Position numbers and translations under genes: made by a program. A DNA stretch of 41,354 nucleotides from a virus: positions 1-41,354 of the IMG/VR virus record IMGVR_UViG_3300030106_002199; one strand, written 5' to 3'. Shown here piece after piece: positions 4,065 through 37,620 of this stretch. The notes beneath the pieces were generated by a model that saw only the letters and a list, made by a program, of their open reading frames with translations, did not search any database and was not told where the DNA came from. The stretch's first letter is position 1. Every line of letters starts with the position of its first letter.

Positions 4065-4498
4065 TACTTATCTTCCTTATATTCCATATAACCACCCATC
4101 ATACGCTTTTCTATTTCTTCATCCATAAAACCACCTTTTGCCATTTCTGTAACATCCATTAGTTTTCCAGGATTTAAAGGTGTTATTAAAGCTGGATCTG
4201 GAACCATTCTTCTTGGAGGACCACTCGGATTACCACCAGATAAACCTCCTCTCATCATACCTTTTACACCTTGTTCTTTTTTTACTCTATTGATGGCACC
4301 CATAAGTCCACCACCTTTTTTACCTTTAACAACATCTTTGTTTGACTTTCGACCTGACGGATCTTTTAATTTAAAAAGAGTATCTTTAGCTGCATCTATA
4401 TCTTTTTGAGTTAATTTTCCTGTCTCTCTTAGCTTTGCTATTTTAAGAGCATCAGATTGTATATCTGTTCTATTAGCCTGTGGGTTATTCTTGTTCAT
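4064..4498 (-). CDS. Gly/Met/Lys-rich hypothetical phage protein
   Basis: 144 residues, unrecognised. The N-terminal third is helical and charged; the middle is Gly-Lys-rich (VKGKKGGGLMGAINRVKKEQ); the tail carries KGGFMDEEIEKRMMGGYMEY. Such low-complexity Gly/Met proteins are common beside virion genes of marine phages. It overlaps the basic protein upstream by 4 bases and the adaptor start by one, so it is co-translated with structural genes. Function unknown; a minor or internal virion component is a guess. Confidence 0.6.
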   Translation of the reverse strand: MNKNNPQANRTDIQSDALKIAKLRETGKLTQKDIDAAKDTLFKLKDPSGRKSNKDVVKGKKGGGLMGAINRVKKEQGVKGMMRGGLSGGNPSGPPRRMVPDPALITPLNPGKLMDVTEMAKGGFMDEEIEKRMMGGYMEYKEDK

Positions 4499-6021: not shown

Positions 6022-6573
6022 CTACGCTATTTGGACGTATTCGATTATAAATGTAAAAGAACCTTGTGTTGTTGCATCTTGTGTGTTTGTAATATTACAA
6101 AATATAGTTCTTTCTGCAGATGTATATTGAACAGAAGCTGGAGCAGTCGTACCACTTTGTGTTTGTAGAACGAGGGATGTAACTGTTACGTTATGCTCTA
6201 CTACAGTTGTTCCACCATCTAATATTTCATCTGTTACTGCAGCAACAATTTGTGCACCTGAACTTGATGTTCCAACTTCATAACCAATATCGCCTGAACT
6301 TCCTAGTGTAGGGGCAGAATCACAAAATATCTTAATATCTGTAATTATAGTATTAGCTGGTTGTGTAAACTCTCCAATATTATCACTATCTCCTGCAGTA
6401 GTATTACAGGTTACACCTGAAGCAAAACCTACATGTTTGATAAATTTATTGGTTACAATTCCAGTAGATGCTGTACTTGCTACTGTAGTAATAGTACCAG
6501 TAGTTGCGTTTTTTGAAATTACTTGAAATCCGTTTTCTGATCGGACTGGACCTGAAAATGTTGTATTAGCCAT
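6022..6573 (-). CDS. Putative capsid-associated structural protein
   Basis: 183 residues, Thr/Ser/Gly-rich, without TM or signal sequence. It begins MANTTFSGPVRSENGFQVIS and continues with long beta-like alternation (TIITDIKIFCDSAPTLG; RTIFCNITNTQDATTQ). It is the first gene after the terminator that follows the major capsid gene, with a GGAGAG ribosome site. Head-fibre or decoration function is an inference. Confidence 0.65.
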   Translation of the reverse strand: MANTTFSGPVRSENGFQVISKNATTGTITTVASTASTGIVTNKFIKHVGFASGVTCNTTAGDSDNIGEFTQPANTIITDIKIFCDSAPTLGSSGDIGYEVGTSSSGAQIVAAVTDEILDGGTTVVEHNVTVTSLVLQTQSGTTAPASVQYTSAERTIFCNITNTQDATTQGSFTFIIEYVQIA

Positions 6574-6640
6574 GTTACTCTCCTTGTCTTGGCAAATGTC
6601 AGTTACACCATGTAACTGTCAAGGTTTGTTTTAGTTTATA

Positions 6641-6680: not shown

Positions 6681-7592
6681 TTATGCTCCTGGAGAACCAA
6701 AAACACATCTTGGATCAGAGAACCCGAAAGAATATCTTTCTCTTGCTTTAAATCTCATATTTCCAGTGTCAAAATCACCTTCCATTTGAGTTTTAATTGG
6801 TGCTCTTTCAAAGTGTTTAAATCCGTTTGGTGCATCAGTTTTGATAAAAAACGCATCTGTATCAGTTAAGAAATGATTGATAACGTAACCTTGTGGCAAC
6901 ATTCCCATATTTCTTAAAGCATTAATATCGTTATCTGCAGTTCCAGTTCTTAACTGTGTTTGAGTAAGTCTGTCTGCAACAAACTGTAATGCTGGAGGAA
7001 CAATTAATTTCATTCCTCTTAATGCGATCTTTAATCCTCTTTCATCCACAAAACCTGTGATTGTAATAAGAGCATCTTCTAAAGATGTCTCATTTAAATC
7101 AGCAGCAACTGAAGGCTCATTATTAAATGTTCCTCCACTTGTCAATGGGTGTGATGCATCACAAAGAGCAACACCGTCACCACCAGCAAAAGCACCTGCA
7201 GTAAAAGCATTATTTAATATTGATGCAGCTTTTACTTGCTTTGTATGTGCCATTGATCTTGCTAATGCACGTGTGTATCTTGCTCCAAGACGATCATAAA
7301 GATTATCTTCGATTGCTTCTTCAGTAATTGAAAACGCTAATGCAATAGTTTCGTGTGTGTACCTTGCTGTAAAGGATTCGTTTGCAGTATCAAAATTTAC
7401 TGCTGAACCCTCAAACTTAGTAGGTGCAGTTCCGAAACCTGACAACATTACCTCTTCTTCGAATGCTCGATCAGAAGTCTCTGTGTCAAAAATTTCTGCA
7501 TGTTCATTTTCGTATCTAGCGAACTCCATACCAAATAAGGCGTTGAGTCCAGGCTCTAGCTCTTTAGCTAATTGTGCTCGTGAAATAGGCAT
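6681..7592 (-). CDS. Major capsid protein (HK97-fold type)
   Basis: 303 residues. It starts MPISRAQLAKELEPGLNALF and has the layout of phage coat proteins that assemble the icosahedral shell: an N-terminal helix, the conserved ALCDASHPLTSGG stretch (near residue 140), a GLKIALRGMKLIVPP segment, and the end RFKARERYSFGFSDPR. It lies downstream of the scaffold and a likely decoration protein and is followed by a strong terminator, as expected for the most abundant virion protein. The start is set by a GGAGAG site just upstream of ATG 7592. Confidence 0.85.
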   Translation of the reverse strand: MPISRAQLAKELEPGLNALFGMEFARYENEHAEIFDTETSDRAFEEEVMLSGFGTAPTKFEGSAVNFDTANESFTARYTHETIALAFSITEEAIEDNLYDRLGARYTRALARSMAHTKQVKAASILNNAFTAGAFAGGDGVALCDASHPLTSGGTFNNEPSVAADLNETSLEDALITITGFVDERGLKIALRGMKLIVPPALQFVADRLTQTQLRTGTADNDINALRNMGMLPQGYVINHFLTDTDAFFIKTDAPNGFKHFERAPIKTQMEGDFDTGNMRFKARERYSFGFSDPRCVFGSPGA

Positions 7593-15214: not shown

Positions 15215-15360
15215 TATTCTTGTTCCCTACGAAAATATACATCGACATGGGCTTCGCATTTTGGACACGATAAATTAGTTACCATCGAATATTCTTCTTC
15301 GTCTTCCAAATCATGGTCACCACCCCAAATTAATTTTGTACCACAATGATAACAATCCAT
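15214..15360 (-). CDS. Small zinc-ribbon protein
   Basis: 48 residues, starting at ATG 15360 and ending TAATG into the next start. MDCYHCGTKLIWGGDHD supplies one CxxC pair and NLSCPKCEAHVDVY the second, so it should fold as a two-knuckle zinc ribbon around an acidic linker. Similar tiny proteins are common beside terminase genes in marine phages. Function not known; a protein-protein adaptor or DNA-contact factor is possible. Confidence 0.75.
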   Translation of the reverse strand: MDCYHCGTKLIWGGDHDLEDEEEYSMVTNLSCPKCEAHVDVYFRREQE

Positions 15361-16391: not shown

Positions 16392-16410
16392 GGGGGGCTA
16401 CTAGCCCCCC
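16392..16410 (-). terminator. Terminator-like hairpin
   Basis: A GGGGGGCT / AGCCCCCC stem with a 3-base loop directly after the stop of the winged-helix gene at 16417. The T tract on the minus strand is short (TTTCTT), so termination may be partial. Confidence 0.6.
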
Positions 16411-16416
16411 AGTAAA

Positions 16417-16770
16417 TTAGTTAACTTTAAAGTAATCGTTTAAAAGCCTTTTATGGTAGAAAGTCCAAATCCTTTCTACTGACTGGGTAGTAGATAACTT
16501 ACTAGTTTCAGGATTTTTTAAATCCTTAATAATTTCCCCTTTAGTAGCCGTACCACCAAGATTATCTAAACTATATAGAATAGCTTGGGCTTGGGCTGGT
16601 AAAGGATAAGCCTTTAAGTTTTCTAATACATTATCAGCTAAACTATAAGTTACGTTATTACTACCTTTAGGAGAAGGGGCAGGAATACCACATTTAGCAA
16701 TAGAAGACTTATTTAAGGTAGGAGTTACAGTAGAACCATTATCTACAATTTTAGTAATTTTCTTAGACAT
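16417..16770 (-). CDS. Winged-helix-like phage protein, paralogue A
   Basis: 117 residues. After a flexible N-terminus with KCGIPAPSPKG, residues 57-117 form a compact helix-helix-wing domain: AQAILYSLDNLGGTATKGEI, then SVERIWTFYHKRLLNDYFKV. The same domain with clear similarity is found at 17079-17393 and at the end of 30186-30584. This looks like a DNA-binding winged helix resembling replication or gene-regulation modules, but no known family was recognised. It has its own promoter-like leader (AGAAAGGAAAAT) and terminator, so it may be an early-expressed regulator. Confidence 0.65.
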   Translation of the reverse strand: MSKKITKIVDNGSTVTPTLNKSSIAKCGIPAPSPKGSNNVTYSLADNVLENLKAYPLPAQAQAILYSLDNLGGTATKGEIIKDLKNPETSKLSTTQSVERIWTFYHKRLLNDYFKVN

Positions 16771-17045
16771 AATATTTTCCTTTCTATCTTTCTAAGTTAT
16801 ATATTCTATTATTGTCATTTTCTTACTAAAGTAAAGTAAAAAGTTTATTATTTTTCAAACTATCGTTTAACATCGTTAACTAATTATTTTGGGCGAGTCA
16901 GTCAAACAGTCAAACAAACCAGTAGAGAGAATGGGTCATTATTATACCTGAGCCTTTGCTCGTGCTGTAATAAGTGATGATGAAAGGCTATGATGAAGGG
17001 CTATGATGATGAGCCCCAGTCAGTCAGTCAATCAGGTGCAATCGG
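16771..17045. other. Intergenic region with promoter-like leader and GTCA repeats
   Basis: No gene seen in this roughly 300-base gap. Near 16800-16850 the minus strand carries CTTTACTTTAGTAAG and AATAATAGAATATATAAC followed by the AGAAAGGA leader of the gene at 16770. At 16896-16920 and 17017-17036 are imperfect GTCA tetranucleotide repeats (gtcagtcaaacagtcaaac; cagtcagtcagtcaatcagg), and at 16976-17012 a doubled ggctatgatga motif. These repeats recur at 17521-17580 and in the nuclease gene. Confidence 0.5.
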
Positions 17046-17073
17046 CAAAAAAAGAGGGAGCCGAAGCTCCCTC
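17046..17073 (-). terminator. Rho-independent terminator
   Basis: The minus strand reads GAGGGAGC-TTCG-GCTCCCTC followed by seven T. It is a strong GC-rich stem with a stable UUCG loop, five bases after the stop of the 104-residue winged-helix gene. Confidence 0.9.
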
Positions 17074-17078
17074 AATCA

Positions 17079-17393
17079 TTAAGCATCGAGTTTAATATAC
17101 TCATCCTCGACCAATAACTTACGATAGAAATCATAAATTCTTTTTGGCGACTGAACAGTTTTTAAACCATTCGCGAGCAAGTTATCAACTACCTCGCCTT
17201 GCGTAGCAGAGCCACCAAGAGCTTCAATAGTATTTAGAATAATCATAGCCTGACCAGCTATCTTACGATTTTCAATAACCTTTGTTATCAAAGTAACTTT
17301 ACGATTATTAAAACCGTTTTTAGCAGGAGCAGGGATACCAGAGTTACCTACAGGAGATTTAGCGACAGGAGCTACCTTTTTAGATTTTTTCAT
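17079..17393 (-). CDS. Winged-helix-like phage protein, paralogue B
   Basis: 104 residues, paralogous to the gene at 16417. It shares GIPAPAKNG in the flexible basic N-terminus and the domain AMIILNTIEALGGSATQGEV ... SPKRIYDFYRKLLVEDEYIK. The N-terminus is Lys-rich (KKSKKVAPVAKSP), which fits DNA binding. It is a single-gene unit with its own promoter (17447) and strong terminator. Two tandem paralogues with independent control suggest related regulators acting at different times. Function unknown. Confidence 0.65.
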   Translation of the reverse strand: MKKSKKVAPVAKSPVGNSGIPAPAKNGFNNRKVTLITKVIENRKIAGQAMIILNTIEALGGSATQGEVVDNLLANGLKTVQSPKRIYDFYRKLLVEDEYIKLDA

Positions 17394-17446: not shown

Positions 17447-17460
17447 CTTACTATAGTAAA
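17447..17460 (-). promoter_or_regulatory. Promoter motif TTTACTATAGTAAG
   Basis: The minus strand carries TTTACTATAGTAAG about 55 bases ahead of ATG 17393, matching the recurrent motif TTTACTATAATA seen ahead of 19307 and 24291. The TACTAT/TATAGT core fits a sigma70-like -10 box. The leader downstream contains TTAGAAAGGTAGAAAG, the shared ribosome-binding leader. Confidence 0.55.
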
Positions 17461-17520
17461 GTATTAATTACTGATTTTTAAATCTTTTTTATGACAAAAT
17501 GATTCCTGCTGCCTGGATCC

Positions 17521-17580
17521 GAGTCAATCAATCAATCGGTCATTCAGTCAATCAGACAGTCATTCGGTCAGTCAAACAAA
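17521..17580. repeat. GTCA/ATCA tetranucleotide repeat tract
   Basis: A run of imperfect 4-base units, agtcaatcaatcaatcggtc then attcagtcaatcagacagtc, partly overlapping the 3' end of the nuclease gene. Related tracts occur at 16896-16920, 17017-17036, 17664-17686 (actgactgactgactg) and 17790-17802 (ttgactgactg). Probable slippage-generated microsatellite cluster; whether it has a function is unknown. Confidence 0.7.
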
Positions 17581-17959
17581 GTTGCTTTAGCACGAGCTTC
17601 CAGTCAAACGGATGTTGTTGATGATGAATGGTGGGTGATGATGAACAGAGGGTACGATTTCTTAGACTGACTGACTGACTGCCTGGAACGCACCAAATTT
17701 GATGTTTTGAAGGGTCATGGATAAGAATCCAAGAGACACCTCCTCGAGTTGCACGACGCGTGTGCCATGCACATTGCTGGGCTGATAGATTGACTGACTG
17801 TATCGTTCCTATCTTGAGTTCAATCCAAAACTCGTTGCCCTGCCAACAGGCATTGACGTCAGGCACTCCTGTGCCAAGGGCTCCTGTTTCAATCCTTTGC
17901 CAGTGAACTTTGGGTAAGCTGTTCTTCAGCGTTTGATACAGGCTCTTTTCTGTCTTCAT
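17552..17959 (-). CDS. VRR-NUC-type PD-(D/E)xK nuclease
   Basis: 135 residues. The nuclease core is visible: RIETGALGTGVPDVNAC with E24 and D34, then FWIELKIG with E47 and K49, and a C-terminal helix plus GVSWILIHDP. VRR-NUC enzymes cut branched or structured DNA; in phages they may resolve replication or packaging intermediates. The start at 17959 overlaps TerS by 71 bases. GTCA-type repeats insert residues inside the gene (TIQSVNLSA and SQSVSLRN), and the last 30 codons run into a repeat tract, so the C-terminus may be degenerate. Confidence 0.75.
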   Translation of the reverse strand: MKTEKSLYQTLKNSLPKVHWQRIETGALGTGVPDVNACWQGNEFWIELKIGTIQSVNLSAQQCAWHTRRATRGGVSWILIHDPSKHQIWCVPGSQSVSLRNRTLCSSSPTIHHQQHPFDWKLVLKQLCLTDRMTV

Positions 17960-24521: not shown

Positions 24522-24830
24522 TTATGCCGACTCATCGCCATTATTATCGTAAGGACTTTGAGTAGTTGGAAACTCACTATGAATATTTTCAGTTATTTCT
24601 TGAGTATCTTTATACATAGGAAATAAATTATACATTAATAATCGCATATCTTCAATATTTGATACTTCTTTCATTGCTCCAGGAACTTTTTCTAGTTCTT
24701 TTATCGCAATATAAAGGGCTTGACCAATTATATATTGACCTCGCATACTTGCAAATAACTTCCTTGCTACTTGGATCTTCTGTTCTTTAGACATCCAATT
24801 TCTTCTTTCTATTTTTTCTTGTTCACTCAT
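24522..24830 (-). CDS. Small helical hypothetical protein
   Basis: 102 residues from ATG 24830 (MSEQEKIERRNWMSKEQKIQ), chosen over an ATG six codons earlier because ATGAGTGA overlaps the previous stop. Mostly helical: KEQKIQVARKLFASMRGQYI, ALYIAIKELEKVPGAMKEVS, MRLLMYNLFPMYKDTQEITE. I recall similar short early proteins in marine phages. Function unknown. Confidence 0.6.
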   Translation of the reverse strand: MSEQEKIERRNWMSKEQKIQVARKLFASMRGQYIIGQALYIAIKELEKVPGAMKEVSNIEDMRLLMYNLFPMYKDTQEITENIHSEFPTTQSPYDNNGDESA

Positions 24831-25092
24831 CGCTTTCTCCCTTTCCATGTATGATTTCCCAAGTGTTTTTATAATCTTCTTCTGCCGTGTCGATGGATAA
24901 CATTCCGTGTGTAATTAGATACTCGGAATAAAAGTCGAACGTCTCATCGGCAGTAGCACCCTCTAGCTCAACTCCTTGACCTATAAGGTTTGCAGCGATT
25001 AGATCTGCTTCGTTCTTAGCACCTAACTCTCGTAGCTTTCGCCATGCGACAACAGCCATGATGATAGGCATCGTTATAGTTTTTTCGGACAT
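24823..25092 (-). CDS. Small helical hypothetical protein
   Basis: 89 residues. ITMPIIMAVVAWRKLRELGA is helical but not a clear membrane segment; ADETFDFYSEYLITHGMLSI follows, with an acidic end. It follows a promoter-like AT-rich leader with TTATTATAATAAA and AAAGGAG. Not recognised. Confidence 0.55.
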   Translation of the reverse strand: MSEKTITMPIIMAVVAWRKLRELGAKNEADLIAANLIGQGVELEGATADETFDFYSEYLITHGMLSIDTAEEDYKNTWEIIHGKGESDE

Positions 25093-27155: not shown

Positions 27156-27453
27156 TCTTTTGTAAAGCCATTTGTGCTTCGACTAAGAGCAGATAACGTC
27201 TAAGGTCTCTTATATCGTCTATAAGTCCTTCTGGTCTCTGATCCTCTTCTAAAGCTAAAAAGATATCGTAAGTATAATCGTTTGATTGGTTTTCTATACG
27301 ATCCCACTTCCTAGCTAACATCATAAAAGCACCTATACCACCTCGCTTTTTCCAACTATCTCCATAAGACTTTTCTGCTTCATGCAAAGCACTAACATCG
27401 TCGTTAGCTAGTACATTAACTTTTTGTATTATCTTACTACGTTTCTCAGTCAT
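27145..27453 (-). CDS. Nmad1/DUF1599-like protein (tentative)
   Basis: 102 residues. LHEAEKSYGDSWKKRGGIGA then FMMLARKWDRIENQS and DDIRDLRRYLLLVEAQMALQ match conserved small proteins in phages; the YGDSW stretch and following helices resemble the DUF1599 (nucleotide-modification-associated) group, predicted by others to act with modified-base pathways. I could not search, so this is tentative. It lies between the thymidylate-synthase-like gene (overlap 8 bases) and polymerase (overlap 11), which agrees with a nucleotide-modification role. Confidence 0.6.
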   Translation of the reverse strand: MTEKRSKIIQKVNVLANDDVSALHEAEKSYGDSWKKRGGIGAFMMLARKWDRIENQSNDYTYDIFLALEEDQRPEGLIDDIRDLRRYLLLVEAQMALQKNVK

Positions 27454-28510
27454 TCTTAGCTCTCTCTTCCTTTCTTTCTAACCACTCCATACATGCTTTT
27501 CTCCAATCTGGTGCTTGGATAGTTGAGGCTTGCAGTATGGCATGTTTATAATCTTTTTGTTTATAATAGTTCCATGCCTCAACAAGAGGTATCGCTGTAT
27601 AAGCGAATGTTTTCATATTACTAAAATGATCTGGGGTTATCCACATACCACCTAGTTCTTCATTATCTTTACTAGAACAAAACAGGTTAAAGAAATAATT
27701 TAAATCTTTATCGAAGTTTTGTTTATCTTGTATTAAGTCTTGCCATGTAATCTCTGGGTTAACTTCATAGCCATGAGGAGAGATACCTTTAGAAAGTTTC
27801 TTATCTAGTTCATTCCAGACATCTAAATAAACATGAGCATTATTACTAATTTGATGATAACAACCTACACTTAGCCCTGACATCGTTGCTATATATTCAT
27901 GAAGCATACTAAAGTGAACTGCGTTAGCCCCATATGCACCCCAAATTAAATCATTAGATCTACAACATACAGTCATATCTAATTTTATTTGATTATTTTC
28001 TTCACCTAATTCTTTTGTTGGATAGGCTTTAAAATATATTTGAGTATTACAAGGAACATCTTTGCCTTTATAATGAAGATCGTGTACAGGATCCCACATT
28101 GATAAAACTATTCGCCTATCCCATTTATTCTCTTTTAGCTTTTTAATAACGTCATGTAATTGATCGTAGCCAAACTGGTTTCGCCAACGATAACCATAAG
28201 ACCCATATAAAAAGTTACCATCGTCAGAAAACTCTTTCATTCTTTTTACAAATCTTGCTAATGGTTCTACATCTCTTCGACCAGCTAACATCCATAAACC
28301 TTCTATAAAATGAAAGAAAGGATTACAATTTCTCTCAGGAAGAAACATTACTCGTTCTCTTGGAAAGTTATAAGTAGAACAAACAGGATCTCTGAACATT
28401 AAGACATCACCATTTCTACTTGGTATCTTTACCATATTGTGTGGTTCTCTTAATGACATTACTGCTATTTGAAATACTTCTTCTACGTTATCGCCACGAA
28501 ATGTTATCAT
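27446..28510 (-). CDS. Thymidylate synthase-family enzyme, probable dUMP/dCMP hydroxymethylase
   Basis: 354 residues. The nucleophile Cys is C154 in DVPCNTQIYF; the phosphate/substrate loop is CRSNDLIWGAYGANAVHF (R184, D187, N196), then SGLSVGCYHQISNNAHVY. The active-site Asn region is retained, suggesting dUMP-type rather than dCMP-type substrate, though alignment there is uncertain. TS homologues in phages with hypermodified DNA make 5-hydroxymethyl-dUMP. It sits next to a hypermodification protein, so hydroxymethylation is favoured over plain dTMP synthesis. Confidence 0.82.
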   Translation of the reverse strand: MITFRGDNVEEVFQIAVMSLREPHNMVKIPSRNGDVLMFRDPVCSTYNFPRERVMFLPERNCNPFFHFIEGLWMLAGRRDVEPLARFVKRMKEFSDDGNFLYGSYGYRWRNQFGYDQLHDVIKKLKENKWDRRIVLSMWDPVHDLHYKGKDVPCNTQIYFKAYPTKELGEENNQIKLDMTVCCRSNDLIWGAYGANAVHFSMLHEYIATMSGLSVGCYHQISNNAHVYLDVWNELDKKLSKGISPHGYEVNPEITWQDLIQDKQNFDKDLNYFFNLFCSSKDNEELGGMWITPDHFSNMKTFAYTAIPLVEAWNYYKQKDYKHAILQASTIQAPDWRKACMEWLERKEERAKND

Positions 28511-29358
28511 TTATATCTCCCTCTTGGTGTACCTTGTCCTAAACGGACTCGTTCATATTTATCAAACTCACAAAGACTATGTTCTATCTCTCTCATCTCC
28601 ATAACTGTAGCTATCTCTGGTGGTAAAAAATTATGTCTCCAATAAAATAAAGTTAACATATCATCGTTCCATTTATGTTTAGAACTTTTCCAATCCAACT
28701 CTCTACCAAATATTCTATTTAATCCTCTCATTGCTCCTGGACCTGCATTAGCCCAAGTTTTTATATCTTTAGCTGAATTTAGAAACATCGTATGTCTTAA
28801 ATCAGTAACAAGTTCATATGCCATAAAATGACCTAAATATGGAAATTCTTGAAAGAGGATATGAGCACGTCTCAAAGTTTCTGTCTTTTCTATTAATTCT
28901 TCTATTATACTTTTTCGTTCATCCCATACCTTCTCTATACACCAAATAACACCATCAACTTTATCCATACCATTAGGTGTTTTTATTATATAACCCCCTG
29001 TAACATACTTCTTTTGTTTCTTTATTTCTTCTCTAGCAAGTTCAGGATCCCAATCAATATGAAGATTATGTTTTAATAAAGTTTCTCCAGTTTCAATAAG
29101 ATTAAACCAACGAAAGATAACAGTAGCCATAAAAACTTCTTCTTGGTTATGGAGAGGTTGTCTCATGTTCTCTCGAAACCAAACAGTTGTCTTATCGTTT
29201 TCTCGAAACGGATTAGTAAATCGATACTTATCTAAAATCTTATCCGTTGTCCAAGGACGAGGAAGACCTTGTTCTTTTTTCTTAAAGATATCATGTCTTT
29301 CCTCGATCCACCAGAAAAACCTTTTAACAGGATCCATTACTTCTTCCTTAGATGCCAA
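28507..29358 (-). CDS. DNA-base hypermodification protein (HMUDK-helical / aGPT-Pplase superfamily)
   Basis: 283 residues. The N-terminus FFWWIEERHDIFKKKEQGLP then RPWTTDKILDKYRFTNPFRE and NDKTTVWFRENM is the strongly conserved signature of the 5-hmdU kinase helical / alpha-glutamyl-putrescinyl-thymine pyrophosphorylase superfamily (Iyer, Aravind and colleagues; experimental work on phages with modified thymidine). Later, PYLGHFMAYELVTDLRHT and NAGPGAMRGLNRIFGR recall a helix-hairpin-helix glycosylase-like fold. No P-loop is present, so the protein would not itself be the kinase. Overlaps the TS-family gene by 4 bases (ATGA) and the methyltransferase by 22. Confidence 0.75.
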   Translation of the reverse strand: MASKEEVMDPVKRFFWWIEERHDIFKKKEQGLPRPWTTDKILDKYRFTNPFRENDKTTVWFRENMRQPLHNQEEVFMATVIFRWFNLIETGETLLKHNLHIDWDPELAREEIKKQKKYVTGGYIIKTPNGMDKVDGVIWCIEKVWDERKSIIEELIEKTETLRRAHILFQEFPYLGHFMAYELVTDLRHTMFLNSAKDIKTWANAGPGAMRGLNRIFGRELDWKSSKHKWNDDMLTLFYWRHNFLPPEIATVMEMREIEHSLCEFDKYERVRLGQGTPRGRYK

Positions 29359-30176
29359 TTAACATTATTAGCAGTTTCAGGATAAGCCGTAGCTAATATT
29401 ACTCTTTGCCAATGCTTATCGAATCTATTTTTAATATCGTCAATAACATTTTGTGACCACCTCATATTAGCACGGTGGTTTTTATTAAAATTATTTGTTT
29501 GGGTAAAAGTTCCATAATGACGTTCTAATACGAAATGTTTTTCTAATAAGTCTTTTAATTCTTGATAGCCCCACTCATAAACATGATCTTTAGGTAATTT
29601 ATCATTAGACCCATCGTGGTTAGGTGTTGATATATATGCAATACCTCCTGGACGTAGCTTTCTAGCAGAAGCCTCAATCCACGGTTCGATAAACTCTCTC
29701 CCCATATGTTCTATAACTTCCGTTGTCATAAAGACATCTATAGATTCATCTTCTACTGGAGGTTCAGGATTAGTTGTTAAATCTTGTAGAACTATTTGAC
29801 CTCTATTAGAAGTCATAGTTTTAAACCACTGGTGTTCTGTAACAGGAAGATCATCGTCTACCCACCAATCATCTAAACATGCTGGATCTATATCCATACC
29901 AACATAACTATTTACAATCTCTGACTTAGTAGAAACAAAGGCTTTATATAAATAACGAAGTGTCCATATTTCCCCACAACCTATTTCTAATATATCAACA
30001 GGTCTTCCAAGAGTTTTAGCTTTATCCATTATTAGTTGTCCCATCTTACAAAAACGACTAATATGAGCTAACTCATCTGGTCTCCAGTTTGCCAGTGTCC
30101 CTGCACTTGCTATATCCATTCTTGTGTTTTTAGAGTTATTTGCATTTACTGCAAGTTTTCTTCTTATCGAAGCCAT
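29337..30176 (-). CDS. Class I SAM-dependent methyltransferase
   Basis: 279 residues. Motif I is VDILEIGCGEIW (about 60-71); an acidic end of strand 2 is YVGMDIDPACLDD; motif III-IV are IVLQDLT and ESIDVFMTTEVIEHM; RKLRPGGIAYISTPNH is the post-motif. The N-terminus is basic (IRRKLAVNANN). This is the small-molecule/UbiE-like class, not a DNA adenine or cytosine C5 enzyme (no DPPY or PCQ). In this cassette it could methylate an intermediate or side chain of the modified base. Alternative: an enzyme acting on host metabolites. Confidence 0.78.
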   Translation of the reverse strand: MASIRRKLAVNANNSKNTRMDIASAGTLANWRPDELAHISRFCKMGQLIMDKAKTLGRPVDILEIGCGEIWTLRYLYKAFVSTKSEIVNSYVGMDIDPACLDDWWVDDDLPVTEHQWFKTMTSNRGQIVLQDLTTNPEPPVEDESIDVFMTTEVIEHMGREFIEPWIEASARKLRPGGIAYISTPNHDGSNDKLPKDHVYEWGYQELKDLLEKHFVLERHYGTFTQTNNFNKNHRANMRWSQNVIDDIKNRFDKHWQRVILATAYPETANNVNWHLRKK

Positions 30177-30185
30177 TGCTTTCTC

Positions 30186-30584
30186 CTATTCATAGTTGAT
30201 GTAGTTATTTGCTAACATTGTTTTATGGTAGTGCTTATATATTCTGTCAACAGGTTGAGTAGTTTGAAGTTTCTTACTCTTTTTTATAATAGGAAAAAAG
30301 TCTTCAATACTTACAGGCTTTCCATGTTTCTTTAATATATCTAATATCACTAACATTTGTGATGCACCCTTTTCTGGGTGCTTATTATAAACAATTACTG
30401 CCTCTGGGTCAAATCTGTATAAAGATTTTTTTACTTCCTCAGAGTTAGAACTTTGTTTAATAACTTTTTGTCTCCAGTTAACTGCTTCTTCAAGTTCTTC
30501 TGGGTGCCAAAATCGAAAACATCCAGGCATATACTCTTGCCAATAGCCGTCAGGAAAAGTAATCTTTGATTTTTTATCTGTCAT
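30186..30584 (-). CDS. Protein with C-terminal winged helix, paralogue C
   Basis: 132 residues. The N-terminus is FPDGYWQEYMPGCFRFWHPE, a separate small domain. The C-terminal 60 residues, MLVILDILKKHGKPVSIEDF ... TTQPVDRIYKHYHKTMLANN, match the winged-helix domain of genes 16417 and 17079. It stands at the head of the base-modification and polymerase operon with its own promoter-like leader (TTTATACTATCATAATATAG upstream). It may be an early transcriptional regulator or a replication accessory. Function unproven. Confidence 0.6.
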   Translation of the reverse strand: MTDKKSKITFPDGYWQEYMPGCFRFWHPEELEEAVNWRQKVIKQSSNSEEVKKSLYRFDPEAVIVYNKHPEKGASQMLVILDILKKHGKPVSIEDFFPIIKKSKKLQTTQPVDRIYKHYHKTMLANNYINYE

Positions 30585-34748: not shown

Positions 34749-35309
34749 TTATTTATTTATTTTAGTTACAAACCCACTATAAAGACCAAAAGTAGTTACA
34801 GGAATATCTGTTCCTTTTTCCATTTGTTCTTTACAGAAAGAATTTAAAGTTGAGTGGTGAACTGACTCTTTAGTAGTAGTATCAATACCTAATGTATCAA
34901 GCTGACTTAATACTTCGGTAAATCTATTATCCCCTCTACCAAATTTACAGTTTATTTCTTTTTTAATAATTTCACCAAAACCATTATCATCTAACCAAGC
35001 ATGTGCTTCTTTTGCTCGGTCTTTTGATATATGAGCCCTTACGAAAGGTTCAACCTTAATTTTAGTTCCATCACTTAACTCAAAACTAGAAAGCCCTACC
35101 TCTGCTAAAAGATCAGGTATTTCTTGTTCGGAGATCATTCTTATCCTCTCCTTAAAAGTCTTAATCGACTCTTCATGGACTTTGACATCTTTTTGTCGTG
35201 CGATAAGTTCGTTTGCCAATCTGCTCAACCTGTTTAATTCATCAGGTGTTGCTTTGACATTTATGGTGTTTATAGCCTCACCACTGAGGATATCGTCAAG
35301 ATTGTTCAT
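34749..35309 (-). CDS. Conserved early phage protein, coiled coil
   Basis: 186 residues from ATG 35309 (MNNLDDILSGEAINTINVKA), preferred because GGAG is 6 bases upstream. Residues about 30-70 form a coiled coil (RLSRLANELIARQKDVKVHE); the rest contains FELSDGTKIKVEPFVRAHIS and WLDDNGFGEIIKKEI, a pattern common to phage early proteins next to SSB-like genes. Role unknown; possibly part of the replication assembly. Confidence 0.65.
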   Translation of the reverse strand: MNNLDDILSGEAINTINVKATPDELNRLSRLANELIARQKDVKVHEESIKTFKERIRMISEQEIPDLLAEVGLSSFELSDGTKIKVEPFVRAHISKDRAKEAHAWLDDNGFGEIIKKEINCKFGRGDNRFTEVLSQLDTLGIDTTTKESVHHSTLNSFCKEQMEKGTDIPVTTFGLYSGFVTKINK

Positions 35310-35646
35310 CATACTCTCCAAAGTATTTTAGGTTAATATTGATGGGAAGATACATTGCTTCTTGTCTATCCCACTTTAACATTTTAAACTTTCCAGCATT
35401 AATATGAGATGCAATACTACAGGCTATGCCTATTGCAGCAGGATCCCCCATTAATAATAGATAGTCTTCGTCTGAAAAACCATTTAAGCCTTCCCTTAGT
35501 CTTGCGACTGTCGGAGCAGAACTTAAAACGATTTGTCTGTTGGGTGGAAGTAAAACTTTAATATTACCAAATTTTCTAGCACCAGATATATTCTTAGTAC
35601 CGAAATCTTGTACAACATATACAGTTGCTTGTTTTGTATTTTCCAT
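35296..35646 (-). CDS. Conserved early phage protein
   Basis: 116 residues. ATVYVVQDFGTKNISGARKF, VLLPPNRQIVLSSAPTVARL and LLLMGDPAAIGIACSIASHI, a small alpha/beta protein of unknown role that begins the leftward early operon. It overlaps the next gene by 14 bases. Similar proteins appear at the head of replication modules in other phages (from memory). Confidence 0.6.
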   Translation of the reverse strand: MENTKQATVYVVQDFGTKNISGARKFGNIKVLLPPNRQIVLSSAPTVARLREGLNGFSDEDYLLLMGDPAAIGIACSIASHINAGKFKMLKWDRQEAMYLPININLKYFGEYDEQS

Positions 35647-35947
35647 TCTACTTTCTCCTAACTTTTACTATACTATACTTTATTAATATAATAATAAACC
35701 TTTATTTTATGCAACATAGTCATGTTTAAAAGTTTTTATTATTTTATTTTTAAAAAAGCTCGTCATAATCTCATAATATCATAAGAATGTAGTTAAGCCT
35801 TTGTTTTTACTATATAACTGCTCTATGAGATTTTATTTTACATTATCATAGATAATGGGTCGTAAGGAACTTTTTTCATAACTTTTATATATCTCACTAG
35901 ATATTTATATAGTATATTAATTTTTAGAAAGAAGAAGGAGACATATT
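35647..35947. promoter_or_regulatory. Divergent promoter region
   Basis: No gene. Leftward: AGTATAGTATAGTAAAAG before the GGAGAAAG leader of 35646. Rightward: TTTATATAGTATATTAATTTTTAGAAAGAAG (in parts: TATATAGTATATTA, then TTTTTAGAAAGAAGAAGGAG) before TTG 35948. The central portion carries the duplicated element copy B (35761-35877). The adjacent XRE regulator at 37390 is the natural candidate to bind here. Confidence 0.65.
35761..35877 (+). promoter_or_regulatory. Duplicated intergenic element, copy B
   Basis: Plus-strand blocks CGTCATAATCTCATAATATC (35761-35780), TTTGTTTTTACTATATAACTG (35800-35820, in parts TTTGTTTT and ATATAACTG), and TCATAGATAATGGGTCG (35846-35862) with a following T run. 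They match copy A upstream of terS in order and orientation relative to the downstream gene. Copy B lacks the 8-base tandem duplication in block 1. Confidence 0.55.
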
Positions 35948-37402
35948 TTGTTTACGTTCAAAACTAGACCGTATAAACATCAGCTTAATGCATTAAAAGA
36001 ATCTTGTAATAAAGATGAATATGCATTGCTTATGGATATGGGAACTGGTAAATCGAAAGTCTTAATAGACACTATAGCTTATCTATATGACACTGGAAAA
36101 ATTAATTCAGCGTTTATATTAGCACCAAAAGGTGTTTATAAAAACTGGGTAGGGCAAGAAATACCTAATCATCTTCCTAACCATATAGAACATAAGATGG
36201 CATATTGGTCTTCACCATTAACAGAAAAAGTAAAAAAAGAAATAGAAGCAATATGGAAACCAGATTTTGATTTACAAATATTTGTAATGAACATTGAAGC
36301 TCTGTCTACTAAGAAAGGTTTAGAGATAGCCAAAAGATTTATCTTTAATCACAAAAATGGAATACATAACGAAGGCACATTATTAGCAATAGATGAATCT
36401 ACTGTAATAAAAAACCATAGGGCAAAAAGAACTAAGAATGCAATAGAGTTAGGAAAGTTAGCGAAGTATAAAAGAATATTAACAGGTTCACCAATAACTA
36501 AATCACCTTTAGATCTATATTCGCAGTTTGCTTTTTTAAGTGAAGAACTATTAGGATTTAGATCGTATTATTCTTTTTGTGCAAGATTTGCAGATATGAT
36601 AAAAAGATCTGCAGGATCTCATCAGTATAATCAAATATTAGGTTTTCGTAATTTAGACGAATTAACAGAACTAATAAAGCCTCATTCTTTTAGAGTAACA
36701 AAAGAACAATGTTTGGATTTACCAGAAAAAATTTATACTCGTAGAGTTATAGAACTAACCCCTGAGCAAAAAAAGATTTATCAGGATATGAAGAAGAATG
36801 CAGTTACCCAATTAGATAATATGGAACAAGTTACTGCAAACGCAGTTATAACACAACTATTAAGACTTCATCAAATAAGTTGTGGTTTTGTAAATACAGA
36901 CGATGGCTCTTCTGTTGAAATAAATAATAATCGACTATCTGAATTAATAAGTATATTAGAAGAAGTAAATGGAAAAGCTCTAATATGGGCGAATTATAGA
37001 CACGATATACAAAAGATAGAACAAGAGCTTAGTCGTATTTATGGTGAAAACTCTGTAAGGAGTTATTATGGTGATACTCCAGGAGAAGAAAGACAACAGA
37101 TTGTAGAACAGTTTCAAACTGATGATACTTTACGTTTCTTCGTAGGACAACCAAGAACTGGAGGTTTTGGTCTTACTCTAACGGCTGCTAATACAGTAAT
37201 TTATTATAGTAATAGTTATGATCTTGAGATAAGATTGCAATCAGAAGATAGAGCACATAGAATAAGTCAAACATCGAAAGTAACATATATTGATTTAGTT
37301 GCAGAAAAAACTGTAGACGAAATTATAGTAAAATCGTTAAGACAAAAAATAAACTTAGCTACCCAAGTTTTAGGAGAGGACTGGAAAAAATGGCTGATAT
37401 AA
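35948..37402 (+). CDS. SNF2-family DNA helicase/translocase
   Basis: 484 residues from TTG 35948 (GAAGGAG 8 bases upstream). Motif I is MDMGTGKSKV, motif II LAIDESTVIKN, motif III RILTGSPIT, and motif V/VI are FGLTLTAANTVIYYS and EDRAHRISQ, a superfamily 2 SNF2/SWI2 ATPase. The length is that of the core only. Such phage enzymes move on duplex DNA, remodel protein-DNA complexes or aid replication and recombination. It leads the only plus-strand operon. Confidence 0.85.
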   Translation: MFTFKTRPYKHQLNALKESCNKDEYALLMDMGTGKSKVLIDTIAYLYDTGKINSAFILAPKGVYKNWVGQEIPNHLPNHIEHKMAYWSSPLTEKVKKEIEAIWKPDFDLQIFVMNIEALSTKKGLEIAKRFIFNHKNGIHNEGTLLAIDESTVIKNHRAKRTKNAIELGKLAKYKRILTGSPITKSPLDLYSQFAFLSEELLGFRSYYSFCARFADMIKRSAGSHQYNQILGFRNLDELTELIKPHSFRVTKEQCLDLPEKIYTRRVIELTPEQKKIYQDMKKNAVTQLDNMEQVTANAVITQLLRLHQISCGFVNTDDGSSVEINNNRLSELISILEEVNGKALIWANYRHDIQKIEQELSRIYGENSVRSYYGDTPGEERQQIVEQFQTDDTLRFFVGQPRTGGFGLTLTAANTVIYYSNSYDLEIRLQSEDRAHRISQTSKVTYIDLVAEKTVDEIIVKSLRQKINLATQVLGEDWKKWLI

Positions 37403-37620
37403 TTGAAAATTTTAAAGATATAAGAAAATATAAAAGCTATACTCAAAAAGAATTAGCTGATGGTACAGGTGTTAGTGAGATAGCTATATACACTTGGGAA
37501 TCTAAAATGAGGCAACCTACCCTGAGTAACTTTAATAAAGTTTTAAATAAAATGGGATTTGAATTACATATTAGACCAATAGAACGAGTATCATATGATG
37601 AGGTAAGCAATGGATATTAA
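37390..37620 (+). CDS. XRE-type helix-turn-helix regulator
   Basis: 76 residues. KSYTQKELADGTGVSEIAIY then TWESKMRQPTLSNFNKVLNK is a Cro/CI-type HTH with recognition helix SEIAIYTWE. The short C-terminus has no dimerisation domain. It overlaps the SNF2 gene by 13 bases and the lysozyme by 11. Probable targets are its own divergent region and possibly the similar element upstream of terS. Confidence 0.8.
   Translation: MADIIENFKDIRKYKSYTQKELADGTGVSEIAIYTWESKMRQPTLSNFNKVLNKMGFELHIRPIERVSYDEVSNGY

Follow-up and report, generated by a model that had tools for sequence, protein, structure and literature searches.

A conserved phage family of three small proteins with a predicted winged-helix domain, and an operator-like palindrome at two of their promoters

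Three genes of a viral genome, designated here g1, g2 and g3, encode a real, unnamed and conserved protein family with a predicted winged-helix domain. We studied them in a window of 41,354 bases, the first part of a 51,421-base record, and in related viral records. A near-perfect palindrome, TTTACTATAGTAAA, lies in the promoters of both g1 and g2 and looks, from its sequence and position, like an operator. The reading that we put forward, with a chance just short of even, is that the three paralogs are winged-helix DNA-binding proteins and that g1 and g2 are controlled together through this palindrome, with the winged-helix proteins working as regulators downstream of that control.

The three genes, their relatives and their positions

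The open reading frames of g1 (16417..16770, 117 aa), g2 (17079..17393, 104 aa) and g3 (30186..30584, 132 aa) lie exactly where the first-pass annotation had placed them, all on the minus strand. In g1 an N-terminal tail precedes the domain, which covers residues of about 56-115. In g2 the tail is basic and disordered and the domain occupies residues of about 40-104. The protein encoded by g3 has a different N-terminal extension, with the domain at residues of about 72-131. Among 46 distinct g2-type proteins the median pI is 9.9 and the median tail charge is +9.

The claim that one domain is common to g1, g2 and the C-terminal half of g3 was borne out by a shuffle test and by an iterated profile. 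The BLOSUM62 local scores are 166 for g1-g2, 68 for g1-g3 and 55 for g2-g3, compared with 25-28 on average (sd 4-5) for shuffles. None of 2,000 shuffles attained any of the three scores, which excludes an alignment at chance level. An iterated profile, started from the three domains and run over every open reading frame of 60 loci and the window, recovered all three genes at E-values of 1e-24 to 1e-30. The homology of g3 is modest in a single-sequence search (phmmer E about 0.002) and becomes strong only with the profile. A profile search of the full 51,421-base record gave no fourth copy at E <= 1. The motif proposed earlier for the domain stands in part: its QxxxRIYxxYxK portion is found in all three proteins (g1 has W for Y), but the LGG.AT.GE stretch is present only in g1 and g2, and g3 has VILDILKKHGKPVSIED at that position.

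Database searches gave the family no name. None of 29 members exceeded a curated Pfam cut-off (best E 0.014), and the sub-threshold matches include Arg_repressor (E 0.061) and MarR_2 (E 0.077). There was no PHROG match for g1 or g2; the best PHROG E-value, 5e-4, belongs to a family of unknown function matched by three members. A sequence search of the PDB returned nothing notable (best E 0.097). In the one open library consulted, with a limited set of terms, we found no literature on the family or on the 14-mer palindrome.

Relatives in the viral_contigs collection were found at 21 loci for g1, 43 for g2 and 5 for g3. A g2-only alignment, used for the collection scans, gave 77 loci there, and a g3-type protein of another phage gave 15. 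The same g2 alignment produced 28 pattern matches in genome_contigs, of which none was confirmed. In a tblastn search of 50,697 phage records, queries for g1, g2, g3 and the g3 type found in other phages yielded no relatives up to E 1, apart from a Gordonia tape-measure hit (E 0.2) that we put down to chance. Two proteins of G013, a deep relative, used as queries against the phage records likewise yielded no match with an E-value of 1 or less.

The podovirus record MW202510.1 from Manatee Spring, a distant phage whose genes are laid out differently, encodes at 4081-4428 a protein with a tail and the same domain (profile E 2.2e-17); its upstream DNA was read by eye only. This record has two copies of the domain, both detected only by the profile, and its copy found no further relatives when used as a query. 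The second is an unannotated open reading frame at 1173-1856 on the plus strand (locus L125) with a domain of this kind at its end (profile E 5.7e-6); the deposited antisense frame at 1158-1907 is probably a miscalled gene.

Three copies of the domain occur in 10 of 22 related records and four in one; the other 11 have one or two, and many of these 11 are short fragments. In a tree of 43 domain rows the g3 rows form a clade with support of 98/98, and a second clade (90/97) takes in 13 of the 14 rows with a g2 label, while the g1 rows are scattered over the backbone; the bootstrap of this tree was not fully settled. The labels follow the best BLAST hit, by which some G013 copies are mislabelled. 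The three genes form an old fixed set, and we read them as anciently separated paralogs.

Their positions are conserved as well. As the first-pass annotation had it, g3 leads the modification/polymerase operon: it stands at the head of the methyltransferase, hmdU-kinase, TS and PolA genes, and in all 11 regions with a third copy it lies between a UvrD-like helicase gene and the methyltransferase/hmdU-kinase operon. The suggested link of the family to an origin or to DNA modification draws on this placement, and the link is positional only. In the window, genes for a thymidylate-synthase-like protein, an hmdU DNA kinase helical domain and a methyltransferase follow one another on the minus strand at 27446-30176; by analogy, this row resembles those of hypermodified-thymine phages. 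Genes g1 and g2 are located at the terminase locus, and g2 follows the small terminase gene in 9 of 12 loci examined (the exceptions are L030, L108 and L109).

Several other features of the window were recorded. After the small terminase gene, an overlapping frame at 17552-17959 on the minus strand, also readable in L008, L030 and L038, has no Pfam match and contains a G-x-PD...ELK stretch, which we take to recall PD-(D/E)XK nucleases. A match to the Rfam Mu-gpT-DE RNA (RF03012, 66.7 bits) lies at 6571-6624 on the minus strand, just downstream of the gene at 6681-7592. GC skew tracks gene orientation and was uninformative.

Predicted fold and structural neighbours

The earlier suggestion of a winged-helix fold agrees with the structure predictions, more firmly for g2 than for g3. 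The AlphaFold2 model of g2, computed from 29 window and locus sequences, has a mean pLDDT of 79. Values are below 50 for residues 1-17, the disordered tail, and about 91-94 across residues 51-100 of the domain. The predicted elements are a helix at residues 47-58, a strand at 62-64, helices at 65-72 and 83-96 and a strand at 100-103, i.e., the winged-helix order H1-S1-H2-H3-wing. The model of g3 is weaker (mean pLDDT 73, 82-88 in the domain): no strand is listed between its first two helices, and its N-terminal extension is modelled as two paired strands and one long helix. The PDB neighbours of both models are mainly winged helices, and all have Z below 8, where a match may reflect no more than a similar arrangement of elements. 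On these models, the shared domain of the three proteins is predicted to be a winged helix.

Among known proteins, the winged helices of Fur/Nur, MarR-like proteins and the Arg repressor have the same helix-strand-helix-helix-strand order as that predicted for g2; the Nur chain 3eyy_A superimposes on the g2 model with Z 7.1 and rmsd 2.2 over 65 residues. Unlike these proteins, the phage family has no effector domain and no Pfam match over the cut-off. Several chains of RiPP recognition elements and PqqD-like proteins are also among the neighbours of the g2 and g3 models (Z 4-7); the genes scanned include none recognised as a RiPP gene. The best viral structure match of both models is A0A6J5QDL3 in BFVD, an uncharacterised protein of an uncultured phage (E 5e-5 for g2 and 1e-3 for g3, 28% identity).

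A palindrome in the promoters of g1 and g2

Separate promoters and terminators had been claimed for g1 and g2, and the sequence supports this. A sigma70-like promoter precedes each gene on the minus strand: TTTACT-17-TATGAT at 17460-17432 for g2 and TTTACT-16-AATAAT at 16835-16808 for g1. Each gene is followed by a terminator-like stem-loop with a T-tract, at 17054..17073 after g2 and at 16392..16410 after g1. Terminators were above chance in the scan (5 found, 1.6 expected), and promoter-like matches as a class were at chance (7 found, 6.5 expected). Several relatives, e.g., L030 and L025, have a GGGGCTAGGTGGTCTAGCCCC hairpin in the 5' leader of g1.

In both promoters the palindrome overlaps the -35 hexamer, on the minus strand, as CTTTACTATAGTAAG at 17447..17461 upstream of g2 and as CTTTACTTTAGTAAG at 16822..16836 upstream of g1. 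Both contain CTTTACTWTAGTAAG with zero mismatches. The commonest perfect 10-bp palindrome of the g1 and g2 upstream regions is TACTATAGTA (TACTA/TAGTA), present in 17 of 39 non-redundant regions, whereas no palindrome exceeded 3 in 300 shuffled sets. Thinning on the basis of shared 8-mers reduced the upstream sets from 213 to 47, which does not make the regions independent. Forms with at most two mismatches to TTTACTATAGTAAA occur in 15 of 21 g1 and 10 of 18 g2 upstream regions, leaving six and eight regions, respectively, without one; the corresponding rate among shuffles is 0.2-0.3%. Upstream of g3 the palindrome is weak or missing (at most two mismatches in one of eight upstream regions, or in 2 of 11 in a separate count).

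A strict pattern, TTTACTWTAGTAW, matches at 24 sites, spread over 16 of 20 records, and its reversed control has no match; the records are related, so this conservation is partly shared ancestry. By a hand count over the 20 records, 20 of the 24 sites lie upstream of g1 or g2 at a distance of up to about 100 bases. Two of the other four are upstream of the homolog of the gene at 15360 (G005 and G006), and G009 and G012 have one each. G002, G010, G013 and G018 have no strict site. With at most one mismatch, across 16 loci, there are 12 sites in the 6.7 kb around the starts of the domain genes versus two in the other 257 kb.

Looser forms are found at some other genes. With at most two mismatches they occur at 3 of 16 DUF932 genes (0.1 expected) and at 3 of 10 copies of the gene at 24823-25092, and forms at the limit, like the two among the 11 g3 regions, were found at 2 of 12 small terminase genes and at one of three copies of the 15360 gene. 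No form was found at the methyltransferase, UvrD, PolA, Pam3 gp34, primase, large terminase, portal or HMUDK genes.

At most sites the left arm of the palindrome is the -35 hexamer, with a TATAAT-like -10 element 16-19 bases further on. A few g2 promoters, read by eye, have the palindrome on the -10 element instead (e.g., TTGACT-17-TATACT in L039). Both arms are conserved, but only one of them belongs to the -35 hexamer. This bears on the reading that the palindrome is a promoter shape conserved with no binder, for which its TTTACT and TATA core and the weaker forms at the DUF932 and 24823-25092 promoters could speak: conservation of the arm outside both hexamers, and a position that changes between -35 and -10, make that reading very improbable.

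Candidate binders and possible roles

In the explanation that we prefer, g1 and g2 would each form a unit consisting of a basic tail and a winged helix under its own sigma70-type promoter and terminator. The two promoters would be controlled together through the operator TTTACTATAGTAAA, which overlaps -35 and in some relatives -10, and a dimer bound there would block RNA polymerase. The operator would be read by a phage repressor. The winged-helix proteins may themselves be downstream DNA-bound regulators, g3 being placed within the replication/DNA-modification operon. DNA binding, repression, the identity of the binder and a regulatory role of the g1/g2/g3 system are what we infer here from sequence and predicted structure. 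The original view of the copies as a set of regulators thus gains an operator-like palindrome at two of the genes, but has to share it with a conserved protein of a second family that competes as the binder.

This protein is a Cro-like XRE (HTH_3) protein of 76 aa encoded at 37390..37620 on the plus strand, with a Pfam match over the cut-off (PF01381, E 1.6e-7, 31.6 bits versus a cut-off of 23). Its gene lies behind an SNF2-like helicase gene, on the strand opposite to g1, g2 and g3. If it binds the palindrome, g1 and g2 would be mere members of its regulon, a reading to which we give a fair share of belief, somewhat under one half. A 14-bp palindrome fits Cro/CI-like proteins. The XRE protein is found in 13 of 23 records (all of G000-G010 plus G014 and G016), and its HTH helix is nearly invariant. 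An operator variant, TTTACTATACTATA, lies at 35664..35677 on the plus strand, in the divergent region between the gene at 35296-35646 and the SNF2/XRE operon, and related variants adjoin the XRE operon in several relatives. G013, in which neither the XRE protein nor the palindrome was detected, keeps four winged-helix copies and has a different HTH_3 protein elsewhere.

The evidence for the XRE protein has limits. Its joint absence with the palindrome concerns one lineage, and the fragments G011, G012, G017 and G019-G022 may miss the gene merely through being cut. In G002 and G010 the XRE protein occurs together with winged-helix genes, but the strict palindrome is absent. One candidate operator, TTTATTATAGTAAY, lies within the SNF2 gene, upstream of XRE, and is present with at most two mismatches in most relatives; it was rejected because it encodes Tyr-Tyr-Ser-Asn and is explained by conserved codons.

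Alternatively, the palindrome could be the target of dimers of the winged-helix proteins, g2 foremost, which would thereby repress the promoters of their own genes. The promoters of g1 and g2 have the best sites in the records, as this would lead one to expect, and the predicted recognition helix of g2 (PKRIYxFYR) is nearly invariant among relatives, as is the palindrome core. The helix of g1, however, varies while the g1 operator does not. One G013 copy also carries PKRIYTFYR, as g2 of other phages does, without the palindrome, but this g2 appears to lie inside an operon with no promoter of its own. We regard such autoregulation as possible but rather unlikely. Our lean to the XRE protein as the binder is only slight because G013 is one lineage and its g2 seemingly lies within an operon.

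A structural role would be different in kind: g2 and g1 could be abundant linker-histone-like proteins that cover or compact the phage DNA ahead of packaging. Their basic Lys/Ala/Pro-rich tails, their own promoters and terminators and their place beside the terminase genes would suit such proteins, and the combination of a small winged helix and a low-complexity basic tail does recall linker histone H1. Domains of H1 are among the structural neighbours of the g2 model (H1x, 2lso, Z 6.4, rmsd 3.4, 63 residues; H1.0, 6la2, Z 5.8, rmsd 2.1, 58 residues), but they are tied with many unrelated winged helices, and the PDB sequence search gave no match to H1. The long Lys-rich C-terminal tail of H1/H5 is absent here; the tail lies at the N-terminus and the domain at the end of the protein, and g3 has no such tail. 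We consider a histone-like role unlikely.

The terminase locus also contains runs of TGAC/TGAT tetranucleotides, at 17523..17679 between the small terminase gene and g2 and at 17019..17034 on the minus strand between g2 and g1; CATCATC repeats adjoin the runs. Runs of three tetranucleotides occur in 16 of 20 records, and in the records searched they are confined to the interval from the small terminase gene to g1. All 90 slightly shorter runs are within 1.3 kb of a winged-helix gene, in a set of 20 loci most of which are centred on these genes. The locus is a possible origin or, as a guess, a packaging site. That g2 and g1 bind the runs as accessories of packaging (pac/cos site) or replication (origin) would fit this confinement, but g2 is relocated in G007, where the sole run remains near g1, and g3 is far from any run; we find such a function highly doubtful. 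The same separation in G007 rules out the runs as a part of the g2 gene unit.

A wider circuit of a lytic phage can be imagined on top of the preferred explanation, in which the winged-helix proteins and the second DNA-binding family would time the passage from replication and hypermodification to packaging. Three copies with histone-like tails would then stand at three stations, the replication/modification operon, the small terminase gene and the packaging boundary, with one shared operator. We mention this scheme as speculation that is quite unlikely to hold as a whole.

An unnamed family thus gains a predicted fold and a layout of three stations in phages with hmdU-kinase (hypermodification-type) genes. 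The palindrome provides a concrete DNA target that is a candidate for in vitro testing. If confirmed as an operator, it would offer a sequence tag by which to read how these phages, met here only as metagenome-type virus records, are regulated.
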